Of a DNA stretch of 64,000 bases, positions 14,245 through 21,451 are shown piece by piece; the first letter of the stretch is position 1, and each line of letters opens with the position of its first letter. Both the position numbers and the translations under genes were made by a program. Under the pieces are notes generated by a model that had not been told where the DNA came from, ran no database searches, and saw only the letters and a program-made list of their open reading frames with translations. The stretch is from Marinitoga aeolica. GTDB lineage: Bacteria > Thermotogota > Thermotogae > Petrotogales > Petrotogaceae. The stretch covers positions 2,232,001-2,296,000 of the forward strand of contig NZ_CP069362.1 in NCBI RefSeq assembly GCF_029910535.1. Direction: 5' to 3'.

Positions 14245-14269
14245 AAAAAGGGGAACTAATCCCCTTTTT
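14245..14269 (-). terminator. Terminator of the CHASE2/FecR/HD-GYP operon
   Basis: AAAAAGGGG and CCCCTTTTT form a 9-bp stem with a 7-base loop; on the minus strand the second arm ends in a run of T. The stem includes two bases of the stop codon of the GAF-HD-GYP gene. Confidence 0.8.
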
Positions 14270-15524
14270 ATATATTAACGCACTTTTCAAGAGCCTTTAC
14301 TATTTCACAATCAAATTTTTTTGGACAATCATCTTTTAAAATTCTTAATACTTTTTCTTTTGGCCATGGTTCTTTATAAATTCTTTTTGCGGTTAGAGCA
14401 TCATATATATCAACTACTGCGAGGATTTTTCCAAATAATGAAATTTCACCATCTTTTTTGTTATAAGGATATCCGGTCCCATCAAGCTTTTCATGATGTT
14501 CTAATGCACCTAAAGGAATATTTTTAGAAAGAAAATCAATTTCTGATAAAAGTTTAGCACCGATAATAGTATGGGATTGTATAATTTTGTATTCATCATC
14601 AGTTAATTTTGAAGGTTTATTTAATATTTCATCCGGAATTCCTATTTTCCCAACATCATGTAAAAGTGCTGCAATTTCAAGTTCTTCTAAAAAGGAATCA
14701 TTAAATCCTAATTCTTTGCCTATTTTTATTGATAGGGTTGAAACATTTTTAGAATGAGTATGTGTATAATTGTCTCTTAAATCGATAGCTGTAGCAACTG
14801 CAAGAATTATTCCTTTTATCGTACTACTTAAATCCTCATATATTTTTGAATTCATTAATTTATTTGATATCAAAGAAGAAAAAAGTTCAATAACTTCTAT
14901 ATCTTCCTGTGTATAAACATCGCTTTTTTTGTTAACAGCTTCTAATACACCAATGGTGTCATTTTCAAAGAATAAAGGAGTAGCAATTATATTTTTTGTT
15001 TTATATTTTGCCTTCATATCTGTTTTTTTAAAATGTAAAGGATTTTTTTGCGCATTGTTTATAATAATTGTTTCTTTTCTTTTAAAGCATTCGCCCGCAA
15101 TTGAGCTATCTATTGGCACATCAATGGTTTCAATATACCCGCTGGCGCCACCAGAGGTAACATAAAAATTTAAGACGTGTTTATCCTCGTTATATAATAA
15201 TATTGAAGCCCCATCAGAATTTAATAGTTTTCTTAGTGCATCTTCTGTTAATTTTAAAACAGTTTCTAATTTAAAATTACTATTTATTAATTCTAATATT
15301 TCTAAGATATGTCCGCTTTCAAATCTTACTTTTATTAATTCATCGTTAGTAATATTAATTAATGAATTTTTCAGTGTTATTATTTCAAGAGAAGTTAATT
15401 TTTTATCAGGGAATATTTTTATATCAGGAGAAATATTAATACTAAAATTCCCTTCTTCTCCATATAATATATTATTAAATGCTATGCCTTTTAAATCAAA
15501 ATTTTGTATAACTACATTTAACAT
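14268..15524 (-). CDS. GAF domain HD-GYP protein (probable cyclic-di-GMP phosphodiesterase)
   Basis: This 418-residue cytoplasmic protein has a short N-terminal region of about 70 residues, a GAF domain at about 75-225 (including GASILLYNEDKHVLNFYVTSG and IIATPLFFENDTIGVLEAVNK) and an HD-GYP domain at about 235-418. The catalytic set is intact: His257, His289-Asp290 in LLHDVGKIGIP, His343-His344-Glu345, and DGTGYP (348-353). This set normally hydrolyses cyclic-di-GMP. It is the last gene of the operon, starting 2 bases after the FecR gene, so its level is tied to the envelope protein upstream. The GAF ligand is unknown. Confidence 0.92.
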   Translation of the reverse strand: MLNVVIQNFDLKGIAFNNILYGEEGNFSINISPDIKIFPDKKLTSLEIITLKNSLINITNDELIKVRFESGHILEILELINSNFKLETVLKLTEDALRKLLNSDGASILLYNEDKHVLNFYVTSGGASGYIETIDVPIDSSIAGECFKRKETIIINNAQKNPLHFKKTDMKAKYKTKNIIATPLFFENDTIGVLEAVNKKSDVYTQEDIEVIELFSSLISNKLMNSKIYEDLSSTIKGIILAVATAIDLRDNYTHTHSKNVSTLSIKIGKELGFNDSFLEELEIAALLHDVGKIGIPDEILNKPSKLTDDEYKIIQSHTIIGAKLLSEIDFLSKNIPLGALEHHEKLDGTGYPYNKKDGEISLFGKILAVVDIYDALTAKRIYKEPWPKEKVLRILKDDCPKKFDCEIVKALEKCVNI

Positions 15525-15526
15525 TA

Positions 15527-17635
15527 TTAAAACTCCTTGGTTTCGAAATTTAAAGTATATTCAAATTTTTGTTCTTTCATATTATAATTTATAGAATAAA
15601 TAACTCCTGAATTTTCCAATACTGGATAATAAATGAATCCTTGTAAATTGGTATTATCATTTAAGAAAACATTAGAGACACTAGAATCTTCCAAAAATTT
15701 ATATTGCATGTAACTAAATCCTGCTGTTAATTGTGGCATTCCTCCTATTGAAGGTATATTTATAGTCATTTGTCCGCTTAATAAACTATCTCTATCTTCA
15801 CTAAATAATTTATTATAATTAAACAGTACATGTAAATATGGACTTATACTCAAAATGGATTTTCCTACTAATCCAAATGAAGCTTTATTTTCTAAATTCA
15901 TATAAAAACCATTAGCAGAATTATATTCATAGTAAGAATTTAAATATTCGTTGTTAAAACCGGCTGATAGGTAATTGAAACCAAACATGAATTGGAAAAA
16001 TGGTGGGAAATTCATTGTTGGCCCTGCTAATGTACCCCAAACCATGGTACCTTCATTTGTAATAACAACATCTGTTTCTATGCCTAATCTAAAAAATAAA
16101 ATATCTTTATATAGCGTAGTTAAATATGCTTGATAAAAATCATTTTGAGGTTTAGTTTTGTTTAAATTTATTATTCCAGTAATCTCAGCATTGAAAATAT
16201 TTAAATCAGCATTAATATATCCAAAGAAAATGTTTGAAGATTGTTGATAATTAAATGGCATCAAAGAAGTTATTTCATAGGGGATATGGAATCCTAATTT
16301 TAAATTTGAAAATTTTAATTCTGTATCCAAAACCCTTGAATATGGAACATAATAATTATTCATAAATAGTCCTAATCCTTTTGTATATGATGGACTTATT
16401 CCATATCTTATATAGAAAGCAGGAAAATCTAATTTAAAATAATTAATAGATAACGCGCTTAAAATATTTGTTGATGGAGATGCTTCATCTGTTGGTAAAC
16501 CATAATAAAGAGGGCTATCTATATTTTCTTGGTAAGCATTAAAGCCAATTCCGATTCCAAATGGTCCAAAATCCAGATTTGGAGCAAAAGAATATACAAG
16601 ATAGCTGTTTAATCCTTTCGTTTGTTTTCCAAAAGATATATTACCAATATTTGCCTTTGCTTTTGAAGGTTGCTCTTCGGTTTTAGTTTTTTCTTTAGCC
16701 TTTTCTTCTGATGGTTGTTTTTCAGTTTTAGTTTCTTCTTTAGGTGTGATTTCATTTTCATATTCCTCTAATGGTTTATCTAATTTTTGTATTTGGGGTT
16801 TGGGTTGCTCAGGAGAGTAATTAAACATATTTCCAGCAGTCACAGGAAATAGCTGATTATTTACCATTGTATATACTGTTCCTTCAAAGGTTCTAATTTG
16901 GGTATTTCCATTATGATTCTCGAATCCAAATTCTGTTCCTCTAACCCCAGCAACTACAGAACCAGAACCTACTAAATATTTTGATCCTGGAGCTAATATT
17001 TCTTTAATTTTATTAACTGTTGCACCTTTTTTCAATTCATATTCAATATCAATATCCCCGCTTTCAGAAACTCTTAAACGTTTTATATATAATTGAGTAT
17101 CTGCAGCAACCTTAATTTCAATATTAAGACTTGGTTCTTTTAAATGGACAAATCCATCTTTTAATGTTAATAATTCTGATTTTTCCTGTATTACAGTATC
17201 GTTTGAAAGAGAATCCCAGATATCTGAATTAGGGGTTTTGTATAAAACATTTCCTCTTTTTTCTAATATTATTAATTTTGTTTCAGGTAAATCCATGCTT
17301 TCTTCAATTACTTTTAATTTTAAAACCTTTTCGAATGTTTTATCTTCATTAAAAAAAGTAATAATAGAATCTCCAGGTATTAAAGGAGCAAGAAAGGTTA
17401 AATGAGCCTTTCCATCAATCAGGTCAAATCCATCAAATAAAATTAGTGGATCATCAAAACCACCACTTGTAACATCAACATAAAGATGTGTTAGCGTTGT
17501 TTGATTTGTTTCAATTTCTATAGGTACACTTTCACCAGCATAAATTGTTGTATTTTCAACATTAATAGAGAATTCTCCAAAAAACAACGATACACTTAGT
17601 AAAAATAAAATCACCATTCCCCATTTTTTAAACAT
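15527..17635 (-). CDS. FecR-domain protein with C-terminal outer-membrane-like beta-barrel
   Basis: The 702-residue exported protein has a signal peptide (about 1-20: FKKWGMVILFLLSVSLFFG) and an Ig-like N-terminal region (about 22-110). A FecR domain lies at about 115-275 (KLIILEKRGNVLYKTPNSD, then YLVGSGSVVAGVRGTEFGF and TRTFEGTVY-like strands). A charged linker (about 290-335) carries two copies of a TKTE-x-QPS repeat. The last 360 residues have alternating aromatic strands and end in Phe, like an outer-membrane barrel. FecR domains usually sit in the periplasm and sense or bind envelope signals. It is flanked by signalling genes with 2-4 base spacings, so a sensor or anchor role is inferred. 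ATG after GGAGGTG. Confidence 0.82.
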   Translation of the reverse strand: MFKKWGMVILFLLSVSLFFGEFSINVENTTIYAGESVPIEIETNQTTLTHLYVDVTSGGFDDPLILFDGFDLIDGKAHLTFLAPLIPGDSIITFFNEDKTFEKVLKLKVIEESMDLPETKLIILEKRGNVLYKTPNSDIWDSLSNDTVIQEKSELLTLKDGFVHLKEPSLNIEIKVAADTQLYIKRLRVSESGDIDIEYELKKGATVNKIKEILAPGSKYLVGSGSVVAGVRGTEFGFENHNGNTQIRTFEGTVYTMVNNQLFPVTAGNMFNYSPEQPKPQIQKLDKPLEEYENEITPKEETKTEKQPSEEKAKEKTKTEEQPSKAKANIGNISFGKQTKGLNSYLVYSFAPNLDFGPFGIGIGFNAYQENIDSPLYYGLPTDEASPSTNILSALSINYFKLDFPAFYIRYGISPSYTKGLGLFMNNYYVPYSRVLDTELKFSNLKLGFHIPYEITSLMPFNYQQSSNIFFGYINADLNIFNAEITGIINLNKTKPQNDFYQAYLTTLYKDILFFRLGIETDVVITNEGTMVWGTLAGPTMNFPPFFQFMFGFNYLSAGFNNEYLNSYYEYNSANGFYMNLENKASFGLVGKSILSISPYLHVLFNYNKLFSEDRDSLLSGQMTINIPSIGGMPQLTAGFSYMQYKFLEDSSVSNVFLNDNTNLQGFIYYPVLENSGVIYSINYNMKEQKFEYTLNFETKEF

Positions 17636-17639
17636 AATT

Positions 17640-18293
17640 TCACCTCCATATGGTTAAATAAGTAATTATTATACTAAACGCCAGTGGGCCTAACTCTGAT
17701 TTAGTATTTATTTCTTCTTTTTTCATCATAATTAGTATTGAAGATATAATAAATAAAAACGAGAATATTAAAAATAATATATTGCTATAATACTTTATAA
17801 AAGGCAAAGAAAATCTAAATAAATATCCCAAATAATCTCTTTTGTAAGGCTTTGAAAATCCATCAATCATATAAAATAATAAACTTATGAAATAAGCATT
17901 AAACAATCCAAGTGTAATGATTTTTGTATATTCAGGTAAAATGAAAAAGTTTTGAGGTTTATATAACATACTTGCCAAAATCAACGAAGAAAAATGCATA
18001 ACTTGGTCTAAAATATAATAAGTATGTGAATTAAATGCTTTTTTTGCTCTATTCTTAAATTTTAAAGTATCTATAGATAAATGGATAAAAGTTAATAAGA
18101 TTATTATAAAAAAGTTATAAAAATTCAAATCTGAAGGTAGAAATAATATAAACATTGAAATAAAAATAATGGAAATATGCAAAATTAAGACACCAACTTT
18201 TAAATTTTTATATCGAGCAATATAAGACGTTTGAAATACATAATCACCAATTAAATGAGAAAGTAAAAAATAAAAAAATATGTTTTCAATCAT
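17640..18293 (-). CDS. DUF3307-family membrane protein
   Basis: This 217-residue polytopic membrane protein begins with the DUF3307 signature HLIGDYVFQTSYIARYKN, followed by HISIIF and FIHLSIDTLKF. It has about six hydrophobic segments. The family has no established function. The ATG overlaps the end of the preceding HD-GYP-like gene by 8 bases, and its own stop lies within the ribosome site of the FecR gene. It is therefore translated as part of the five-gene signalling operon. Confidence 0.85.
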   Translation of the reverse strand: MIENIFFYFLLSHLIGDYVFQTSYIARYKNLKVGVLILHISIIFISMFILFLPSDLNFYNFFIIILLTFIHLSIDTLKFKNRAKKAFNSHTYYILDQVMHFSSLILASMLYKPQNFFILPEYTKIITLGLFNAYFISLLFYMIDGFSKPYKRDYLGYLFRFSLPFIKYYSNILFLIFSFLFIISSILIMMKKEEINTKSELGPLAFSIIITYLTIWR

Positions 18294-19464
18294 TTTTAAC
18301 CACCTCTTTTAAAACATCTACCAATATTGGATTAAAAAAAACATCACTATAACTATCAATTAATTCAATAGCTTTTGTTTTTGGTAATTTACTACGGTAT
18401 GGTCTATCCTCTAACAGTGAATAATATGTATCAAGCAAACCAATAATTTGTGCTAATAAAGGAATATTATCTCCTGTTAATCCTTCGGGATATCCTTCGC
18501 CATTCCATTTTTCATGATGATACAAGACAATTTTTTTGACTTCTTCTGGGATAGTTGGGATTTTTGATACAAGATTATATCCATATATAACATGTTTTTT
18601 TATTAGATTATTTTCTTCCAAAGTTAATTCTCCTTTTTTTGACAAAATTTTCTCTGGTATTCCAATTTTTCCGATATCAAATATCATACTTCCAAATTTG
18701 AGATTTTGGATATTTTTATTACTTAAATTTAATATTTCCCCAAATTTTATAGCTGATTTCAAAATATTTTCACAATGTTTTTCAGCTCCAGGTACTCTAG
18801 TTTCTAGAATAATTGTTAGTACATTCAATGATTTATCAAGAATAATGTTAAATTTATTTTCTAAAAATGAATTTTCAATATTCTTTTTAATGTAATCATT
18901 CAATTTGTATATTAAGGCATAATCATATAATGTAAAACCTTTATTTCGTATTAAAACAAAATAACCAAGATCAAGATTTTCTAAAATTACAGGGATTCTC
19001 ATTTTATCAATATTGCAACTTATATAGGGAATAATTCTTTCTGTAGAAGTAATAAATTCGATATTTTCAAAAAATTTAGTATTAGCGGACAAATAAAATT
19101 TAATCTCATCAAGAGAAAAAGTGCTTTTTAAAGTTTTTTTTATGTTTTCAATAGTTTTTTTAAATTTAATATTTGGTTTTAAATTGGAAATAAAGTTTAA
19201 TATCTTTTCGTCAATATCTTTTTCTTTTTTTATGGAACAAAAATCTTTAACAATAGAATCCAAACTTAGCAAAAAAATATAATCAATATTTTCAAAAAAG
19301 ACGATTTCTACATAATGTTTTCCTTTATATTGAACTTTAATATGTTCTTTTTTATTAGAACTTGAATTTTCATAAATTTCATTATCTATAATAATTCTAA
19401 AATCTATACCAAGTAGTTTTAATGTGTTAATATTTTCTAAAAGCAGGTTATGAAATTTATTCAT
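18286..19464 (-). CDS. HD-GYP-like protein lacking the HD histidine (probably non-catalytic)
   Basis: With the start at the ATG at 19464 (GGAAGGAG 8 bases upstream; an ATG eight codons earlier lacks a site), the protein has 392 residues. The first 200 form an unrecognised alpha/beta, perhaps GAF-like, region. Residues about 205-390 are HD-GYP-like: EKHCENIL (His230), IFDIGKIGIP, HVIYGYNLV (His291), HHEKWNGEGYP (316-326) and LLDTYYSL. The key HD pair reads Phe262-Asp263, so a metal-ligand histidine is lost. It is more likely a binding or regulatory paralogue of the 14268-15524 protein than an enzyme. It overlaps the cyclase gene by 8 bases. Confidence 0.85.
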   Translation of the reverse strand: MNKFHNLLLENINTLKLLGIDFRIIIDNEIYENSSSNKKEHIKVQYKGKHYVEIVFFENIDYIFLLSLDSIVKDFCSIKKEKDIDEKILNFISNLKPNIKFKKTIENIKKTLKSTFSLDEIKFYLSANTKFFENIEFITSTERIIPYISCNIDKMRIPVILENLDLGYFVLIRNKGFTLYDYALIYKLNDYIKKNIENSFLENKFNIILDKSLNVLTIILETRVPGAEKHCENILKSAIKFGEILNLSNKNIQNLKFGSMIFDIGKIGIPEKILSKKGELTLEENNLIKKHVIYGYNLVSKIPTIPEEVKKIVLYHHEKWNGEGYPEGLTGDNIPLLAQIIGLLDTYYSLLEDRPYRSKLPKTKAIELIDSYSDVFFNPILVDVLKEVVKND

Positions 19465-21451
19465 TAAGATCTCCTTCCTTGATAGCATATAATTTCAAAG
19501 GTAATTTTTTCCCTTTAACTTTAAAATCCCCTATATATTCGAAGTTAAATTTTTTAGCTCTTTTCACAATTTCTTCGGTTACGATTAACCATTGATTTAA
19601 ATCACGAGTTAAATGTTCAATTCTTGAAGTGGTATTTACCGTATCTCCTATACATGTGTAGTCCATTCTAAAATCTGCACCAATATTACCTATAATAACT
19701 TCACCATAATGCATTCCAATTCCAGCATTTACTTCAAAATCAAAACCCATTTCTTTTAATTTTATGTTTATTTCTTTGAGTTTTTTTCGCATATCTAAAG
19801 CACAGGAAATAGCTCTATCAACCTCATCTCCAAATTCTATAGGGGCACCAAAAATGGCCATTATTAAATCTCCTATAAATTTATCTATTGTACCATAGTA
19901 TTTATTTCTTATAATATCAGCCATTTCAGATAAGTAATAATTCAAAAACCTTACTACCTCTTCTGGAGAAAGCTTTTCAGATTTTTCAGTAAATCCAACT
20001 ATATCAGACATTATAATAACGACTTCTTTTTTTTCACCACCAAGCTCTGTTTTACCCTGATCAAGAAGTTTTTGGGCTACAAAATCCGGCACATATTTAA
20101 AAAAGAACGATTTTATTTTCTTTTTTTCTTTAGATTCTTTTAATACAGATTGAACAGTATCTACAACTGGGATTATTAGTGTTGAAACAACAGGATAAAA
20201 AGTATCAACCCATATATTATTTTTGAATAAAAAATAAGAGATGAAAATATATAATGTAGGTATTGAAAATGAAAAGATTTTTATGGAAACTTTTTTAAAC
20301 ATAGAAAATAATAAAGATAAAAAGAGCAATGAAAATAATATAATTACACTATAAAAAAAGTTAATTCTTTGAATTTTATCTTTGTTTATTAAATTTTGCA
20401 CAGCAGTAGCATGCAAATAAACACCTGGTTCATCATTTGAAAAAGGAGTTATTCGTAAATCATACAGTCCTTTTGCAGTAGCTGAATACCCTAGAATTGC
20501 AACCTTCCCTTTAAAGTCGTAATTATCATATTTATTTGTATAGACTAAATCATAAAAAGATATAGTATCAAATATGTCCGATCCCTTCCCGTAAAAGTTT
20601 AACAAATAAAATCCATTTTTATCTGTTTTTATAGTTTCACCATTAACTTCTATTGAATAATTTTTTGGATCAAAAATAAATTTATTTACATCATAATCTT
20701 TATAAAAAGCATATAAAATAAGATCCATATGTGGAAATAAACCTGTACTATATCCTTTTTCTGCAGCCCAGTTCTCTTTAAATATTAAAGGTAAGCTTCT
20801 GGCTACTCCATCTGGATCTAGCTGTCCAATTTCATATGTGGATGCTGGAGCCAATGATGAAAATTCCGGGATTGGAGGTATTATTTTATATGCAGTTAAT
20901 GGAAAGAATAAAGGCAAATATTCTGGGTTTTTTAATTTGAAGGAATATTTCAAATAAAATCTGTTTTTTTCTAATTCTTCCTTAAATTTATCATTATATT
21001 CTTCGAAATTTTGTTTTTTTACAGTTAAATATGTTCCCAATACAACTTTATTATATTTTCTTAGAATTGCAGATAATAACACATCATCTTTTGATTTTCC
21101 ATTACTCATAATATTACTTTCTGATGGTGTTGTGAAAGAAACATCAAACCCGATAGTTTTAATACCTAATTTAAATAATTTTGCAATCATTCTTGCATAA
21201 TGTTCTCTATTCCACGGCCATTCATCATTAAATTGTGTAGACATATTTATTAATGAATTTTCATCTATAGCAATAATAACGACTTTGGAATTTATCTTTT
21301 TTTCTCCTCTTATTCTATATCTTAGATCCAGTGTTTTCAATTCAAAAATTTCAATCCAGGGATTGTTAAATAAGTAAGTTATTAAATAAATAGAAAGAAA
21401 TAGAATAAAAAGTATATGTATTATTTTTAGTTTAAATTTAAAAATTTTCAT
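19457..21451 (-). CDS. CHASE2-domain class III adenylate cyclase
   Basis: The 664-residue membrane protein has an N-terminal membrane helix (about 9-28), an extracytoplasmic CHASE2 sensor (about 30-365, with DLRYRIRGE, VVIIAIDENSL, GIKTIGFDVSF and KVAILGYSA) and a cluster of membrane helices (about 366-445). The cytoplasmic class III cyclase domain follows (about 475-655). Catalytic residues are present: metal Asp483 and Asp528, substrate Lys524 and Thr599 in the adenylyl-cyclase pattern, and Asn606/Arg610 for transition-state stabilisation. cAMP production is therefore expected. It is first in the five-gene operon. ATG after AGGTGATAGT. Confidence 0.92.
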   Translation of the reverse strand: MKIFKFKLKIIHILFILFLSIYLITYLFNNPWIEIFELKTLDLRYRIRGEKKINSKVVIIAIDENSLINMSTQFNDEWPWNREHYARMIAKLFKLGIKTIGFDVSFTTPSESNIMSNGKSKDDVLLSAILRKYNKVVLGTYLTVKKQNFEEYNDKFKEELEKNRFYLKYSFKLKNPEYLPLFFPLTAYKIIPPIPEFSSLAPASTYEIGQLDPDGVARSLPLIFKENWAAEKGYSTGLFPHMDLILYAFYKDYDVNKFIFDPKNYSIEVNGETIKTDKNGFYLLNFYGKGSDIFDTISFYDLVYTNKYDNYDFKGKVAILGYSATAKGLYDLRITPFSNDEPGVYLHATAVQNLINKDKIQRINFFYSVIILFSLLFLSLLFSMFKKVSIKIFSFSIPTLYIFISYFLFKNNIWVDTFYPVVSTLIIPVVDTVQSVLKESKEKKKIKSFFFKYVPDFVAQKLLDQGKTELGGEKKEVVIIMSDIVGFTEKSEKLSPEEVVRFLNYYLSEMADIIRNKYYGTIDKFIGDLIMAIFGAPIEFGDEVDRAISCALDMRKKLKEINIKLKEMGFDFEVNAGIGMHYGEVIIGNIGADFRMDYTCIGDTVNTTSRIEHLTRDLNQWLIVTEEIVKRAKKFNFEYIGDFKVKGKKLPLKLYAIKEGDLNE

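Follow-up and report, generated by a model that had tools for sequence, protein, structure and literature searches.

The window analyzed here is a stretch of 64,000 nucleotides from Marinitoga aeolica (Thermotogota), and five of its genes, which we call A, B, C, D and E, form an operon on the minus strand (21451-14268). Gene A encodes a CHASE2 class III adenylate cyclase, B a pseudo-HD-GYP protein, C a DUF3307 membrane protein, D a FecR-domain protein with a predicted outer-membrane barrel, and E a GAF-HD-GYP protein. We consider it probable that the operon is an envelope-to-cytoplasm signaling unit of the NsrA-CyaK type. In such a unit D would act on A, and the cyclic AMP (cAMP) made by A would act both on proteins with cyclic nucleotide-binding (cNMP) domains and on E, which would hydrolyze cyclic di-GMP (c-di-GMP).

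We searched 103 Thermotogota genomes with A, B, C, D and E, and the neighborhoods of about 30 of them were read. Families are labelled f1, f5, f9, f10 and f11, genera g29 and g31, and genomes are given as G numbers. Gene C had been missed by open reading frame (ORF) calling in some genomes and was placed there by homology search. Gene A is present in 36 of the 103 genomes, with a remnant in one more (G076), and the order A-B-C-D-E is found in 28 genomes from 11 genera and four families (f1, f9, f10 and f11). This count includes G054, where D is split by a frameshift, G069, where A is frame-shifted, and G070, where A is inverted. In five further genomes, which include a twelfth genus with A-B-C-D, contig ends cut the operon, and two f5 genomes hold only A, C and a complete GAF-HD-GYP gene in the position of B. 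The same order in four families is co-location far beyond chance. A preliminary description of the window had proposed a five-gene operon, and the neighborhood search across Thermotogota bears this out, with co-location recurring in four families. Because the maximum-likelihood tree of A follows the families, with 4 changes, the minimum for five families, the pattern fits an old, vertically inherited operon that has been lost repeatedly.

Disrupted copies were also seen. In Marinitoga lauensis (L125, L112), represented by a lower-completeness draft genome, stops or frameshifts lie in all five genes; sequencing error is the likely cause, the alternative being true decay. In G070 (C1, L159:1639-5789), A lies inverted at its usual position, flanked by two copies, themselves inverted, of a 343-amino-acid transposase-like ORF, a change that would disconnect A from the other four genes. 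Two fragments of a CHASE2 gene are all the operon traces found in G076 (L108:7452-8169), and they probably represent operon loss in progress.

In the window the genes are transcribed in the order A (21451-19457), B (19464-18286), C (18293-17640), D (17635-15527) and E (15524-14268). A and B share an 8-base overlap, ATGAATAA (19457-19464), as do B and C, ATGATTGA (18286-18293); gaps of 4 bases separate C from D and of 2 bases D from E. A Shine-Dalgarno-like sequence precedes each of the five gene starts, and the start of B at 19464 is preferred over that at 19488 because GGAGAT lies just ahead of it. A terminator with a 12-pair stem and a T run (14271-14243, minus strand) ends the operon. Its start is clean, because a second terminator on the same strand (21534-21506) closes the upstream chemotaxis-receptor gene and separates it from the operon. 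Between this terminator and A lies a short leader (21505-21452) with a presumed promoter, a weak call, where TATAAT and a Shine-Dalgarno-like sequence stand ahead of the A start. Promoter-like matches across the operon region were fewer than shuffles predict (47 observed versus 59.5 expected) and are therefore uninformative on internal promoters, and an Rfam scan of the region returned zero elements. On re-reading, the coordinates of the five ORFs, their overlaps and small gaps and the single terminator all agreed with the preliminary description, as did its domain calls (CHASE2-cyclase, HD-GYP-like, DUF3307, FecR and GAF-HD-GYP) with the Pfam results.

Gene A encodes a protein of 664 amino acids with Pfam matches to CHASE2 (3.2e-44) and Guanylate_cyc (1.6e-25). 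Hydropathy indicates an N-terminal membrane segment at about residues 8-31 and hydrophobic segments from about residue 360 onward, with the Pfam CHASE2 domain (23-378) periplasmic and the cyclase domain (474-658) cytoplasmic. The catalytic residue set of a class III cyclase is complete in A: Asp483, Lys524, Asp528, Thr599, Asn606 and Arg610 are present in 29 of 29 orthologues and Asp597 in 27 of 29. We take Asp483 and Asp528 to be metal-binding, the Lys and Thr to be tied to the choice of adenine, and the Asn-Arg pair to be catalytic. Across the 103 genomes, PF00211 gave one match per genome in 35, each time A itself, and was absent beyond A in all of them; cyclases of classes I, II and IV were not searched. 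No class III cyclase other than A was found in the operon-bearing Thermotogota genomes, and for this reason the operon is probably the source of the cell's cAMP. PADLOC matched A to PycC, and a role in Pycsar defense was considered and rejected: the match is confined to the cyclase part of A, which also has CHASE2, and none of the five genes matches a Pycsar effector.

Candidate receivers of this cAMP are encoded elsewhere. The number of cNMP-binding domains per genome is 2-7 (median 5) in the 36 operon-bearing genomes versus 0-5 (median 1) in the other 67 (Mann-Whitney 2e-14, uncorrected for ancestry). Of the genomes with the operon, 27 of 36 encode proteins of about 400-430 amino acids that have two cNMP domains (one of them often weak), as against 0 of the 67 others. 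Because genomes with and without the operon both exist inside f1, f9 and f10, the link between operon and cNMP domains is not the result of one old split. The M. aeolica genome itself has two tandem genes for two-cNMP-domain proteins of 420-430 amino acids, near minD-like genes (C1:56738-59303; L143:2739-5304). In g31 and g29 (L152:1040-2072 and L155:1439-2462), cNMP-like proteins of 240 and 105 amino acids are encoded after secA and are perhaps a split two-domain receptor.

Gene D encodes the protein that would face the envelope, with a Pfam match to FecR (2.7e-5) and an Lsa33-like match (5e-11). It consists of a signal peptide (about residues 1-20), an N-terminal domain (about 24-110), the FecR domain (about 140-258), a charged linker (285-335) and a barrel region (336-702), and its hydropathy shows the signal peptide and no further membrane helix. 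The C-terminal part is predicted to be an outer-membrane beta-barrel. Over the 367 residues of this region the family profile has a period-2 hydrophobicity above all 1000 shuffles, and the C-terminal residue of D is Phe, with Phe or Trp ending 16 of 24 members. The prediction draws on sequence statistics because the single-sequence structure models were unusable, with a predicted local distance difference test (pLDDT) score of 32 for D and 54 for C; a sequence search of solved structures gave nothing that matches C or D. A contig scan with D had its sole match in M. lauensis. The M. aeolica genome also encodes a stand-alone barrel paralogue of D, a secreted protein of 399 amino acids with a signal peptide (C1:1013306-1014505; L157:1807-3006), whose gene adjoins galT-like and ABC sugar-binding and transport genes. 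Relatives of this paralogue are present in several Thermotogota that do not have the operon.

Gene B encodes a protein of 392 amino acids (Pfam HD_5, 7.6e-34) in which the His of the HD pair is replaced by Phe and the E185 position by Gly, with HHE and H250 retained. In orthologues outside f5 the equivalent of H221 is lost in 27 of 27 (Phe, Tyr, Ile or Ala instead), and H250, H276 and H277 remain; in PmGH, the H221A substitution abolished activity (PMC4159591). Loss of the catalytic His in all 27 orthologues marks B as a long-lived, conserved pseudo-enzyme. Recent damage to the gene is ruled out on the same ground, and with it the "damaged HD-GYP" of the preliminary description, whose complete GAF-HD-GYP, by contrast, is upheld in gene E, seven of the eight PmGH metal ligands and GYP being retained in 25 of 25 orthologues.

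The product of E (418 amino acids; Pfam GAF_2, 4e-17, and HD_5, 7e-38) matches the PmGH structure 4mcw over residues 82-408, which span GAF and HD-GYP, at 1.7e-61. It carries the HHExxDG and GYP motifs of c-di-GMP HD-GYPs, and among its orthologues 7 of the 8 PmGH metal ligands, Lys225 and GYP are kept in every case. A Tyr at the E185 position places E in the Y/F subfamily of PMC4159591. E is predicted to be an active c-di-GMP phosphodiesterase. After PmGH, the best structure matches of its GAF domain are 5w10 and 1ykd, and the GAF residues Asn198, Lys199 and Asp208 are invariant in all 25 orthologues. We understand 5w10 to show the GAF of Lcd1 with cAMP bound, and 1ykd a pair of GAF domains from a cyanobacterial cyclase, also in complex with cAMP. 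Activation by cAMP is known for Tlr0485, a GAF-HD-GYP of Thermosynechococcus, and Lcd1 is a further precedent (PMC8846402). Tlr0485 has its GAF linked to HD-GYP as E does, and we propose the same route for E; it differs in that cAMP binding by E is putative and that the review mentions no CHASE2-FecR operon link (PMC8846402).

The DUF3307 protein encoded by C is a polytopic membrane protein of 217 amino acids (PF11750, 1.4e-22). Eleven polar residues (H13, D17, Q21, K29, H39, H71, D75, K78, D96, Q97 and H100) are invariant in 29 of 29 sequences, and this set of His, Asp, Gln and Lys looks like a catalytic or metal site within a membrane protein.

We propose that the barrel of D would lie in the outer membrane, with the FecR domain on the periplasmic side. 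A change in the barrel, whether through a ligand or through the state of the envelope, would be relayed through FecR to the CHASE2 domain that A has in the periplasm, which would switch the cyclase and thereby cAMP; both the D-A contact and this direction of the signal are what we infer. The cAMP would be read by the cNMP-binding proteins encoded outside the operon and probably also by E through its GAF domain, after which the HD-GYP domain of E would hydrolyze c-di-GMP. B, a catalytically dead HD-GYP, likely regulates or scaffolds E or A and may hold or inhibit E. C would be an integral membrane partner that may join in signal transfer or modify lipid. The FecR/barrel protein had earlier been suggested to control both cAMP and c-di-GMP. 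That D feeds the CHASE2 cyclase, with a c-di-GMP arm attached, is still the natural reading, but direct control of c-di-GMP by D is not retained, control through cAMP and the GAF of E being more economical. In a stricter form, which we put forward only tentatively, the operon might be a single-input cAMP circuit in a large part of the phylum. One outer-membrane sensor would control the sole cyclase, cAMP would directly activate E and lower c-di-GMP in one step, B would tune the output, and C would be a membrane enzyme or transducer needed for coupling. The two-domain cNMP proteins would then constitute a novel type of cAMP receptor, present or absent together with the operon. A signal path across two membranes to a cyclase has been outlined for very few systems, and here the complete chain is seemingly encoded in one compact operon. 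The proteins of a thermophile suit structural work, and with no other class III cyclase recognized, the link between cAMP and c-di-GMP is cleanly testable. The operon also gives a context for DUF3307 and points to candidate cAMP receptors outside it.

Several points weigh against the proposed signaling unit. The FecR score of D (2.7e-5) is barely above the Pfam cut-off, and the pLDDT of 32 for D comes from a single sequence with no alignment. The cNMP co-occurrence test is only partly corrected for shared ancestry, and in two Rhizobium plasmid loci the DUF3307 match has no CHASE2 cyclase nearby. The GAF of E also matches the GAF of PmGH, and cAMP binding by a GAF domain is not readable from sequence. 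This closeness to PmGH would suit two parallel outputs, in which D (or C) acts on A, and E and B govern c-di-GMP on their own by means of a GAF ligand that is not cAMP, and c-di-GMP enzymes are abundant in the genome (15 GGDEF and 15 HD-GYP matches). We regard that arrangement as rather unlikely, as in four families E orthologues go together with the sole class III cyclase gene, and a cAMP-activated GAF-HD-GYP has precedent. Still less probable, in our view, is that the HD-GYP proteins serve the cAMP arm, with E (and B) degrading cAMP or another product of A and so closing the loop. The CHASE2 cyclase clusters of Campylobacterota do hold a phosphodiesterase said to hydrolyze cAMP (PMC9239204), but E keeps the GYP, HHExxDG and metal ligands of c-di-GMP HD-GYPs and its match to PmGH reaches 1.7e-61.

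The role of D can be read in other ways as well. D may be a reporter of envelope integrity and not a receptor for an outside ligand, the barrel merely anchoring the FecR domain, which we hold to be possible but doubtful. Barrel-less FecR-LysM proteins pair with CHASE2 kinases in Burkholderia (PMC5192318) and short FecR proteins with CHASE2 cyclases on plasmids, and because of these pairings the FecR part appears to be the constant element. However, the operons with D keep its barrel region, which has a stand-alone, secreted relative whose gene lies beside sugar-use genes. Control of a FecI sigma factor, with D as an anti-sigma regulator of iron uptake, is suggested by the name of the FecR domain alone and was rejected as extremely improbable. 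No sigma-factor gene is found among the five genes or was recognized beside them, and D has no membrane helix besides its signal peptide.

The closest known system to the operon is NsrA-CyaK of Sinorhizobium meliloti. At the cyaK locus, CyaK combines CHASE2 with a cyclase domain, and the overlapping gene encodes FecR and TPR domains together with a weak match to an outer-membrane barrel. This FecR-domain gene beside cyaK is presumably nsrA. Both systems combine an exported protein that has FecR and a predicted barrel with a CHASE2 class III cyclase. The Sinorhizobium FecR protein differs in its long TPR region and its length of about 1190 amino acids, and the locus in its FecR-then-cyclase order and the absence of adjoining HD-GYP and DUF3307 genes. 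NsrA is an outer-membrane protein needed for the cAMP response in Sinorhizobium, where the cAMP output is experimentally known (PMC7529298, PMC13001267). Clusters of a FecR-domain outer-membrane protein, a CHASE2 adenylate cyclase and a phosphodiesterase were described in Campylobacterota in 2022, where these cyclases are the only adenylate cyclases of the group (PMC9239204). Those clusters contain a TPR protein and a cAMP phosphodiesterase, DUF3307 and the HD-GYP pair are not reported for them, and their distribution suggests horizontal transfer (PMC9239204). The BiofilmReg system of Burkholderia likewise places the gene for a periplasmic FecR protein next to that of a CHASE2 receptor, but its output is a kinase and response regulator, and its FecR is joined to LysM and has no barrel (PMC5192318). 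Our literature search found no paper on the five-gene unit in Thermotogota. The joint unit had been thought undescribed, which needs narrowing: its FecR/CHASE2-cyclase core is known (PMC9239204, and NsrA-CyaK), and the new elements are B, C and E, the distribution in Thermotogota, and the finding of no class III cyclase in the phylum apart from A. The operon is richer in parts than the outer-membrane-to-cAMP signaling units described so far.

Related gene runs occur on plasmids, and in the six plasmid loci first read the FecR gene adjoins the cyclase gene or sits one gene away in all six. A plasmid search with the DUF3307 protein of the window (C) gave zero matches; one with a Paracoccus DUF3307 gave six records, and a CHASE2-type cyclase accompanies those from Paracoccus and Shinella. 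On pAMI5 of Paracoccus aminophilus the TPR, FecR, CHASE2 cyclase and DUF3307 genes are adjacent, and the last three kinds of gene also occur in the operon of the window. The plasmid run differs in that the DUF3307 protein is short (112 amino acids), HD-GYP neighbors are absent and the C-terminus of the FecR protein is of another kind. Because the pAMI5 gene run includes DUF3307, this family is tied to cyclase units outside Thermotogota as well. A Shinella plasmid (L133:390-12324) holds FecR, cyclase, bacteriocin-type export, cNMP-binding protein and DUF3307 genes in one run, in which the DUF3307 gene overlaps the cNMP-binding gene, and the cyclase unit of this plasmid is embedded in a peptide natural-product cluster.

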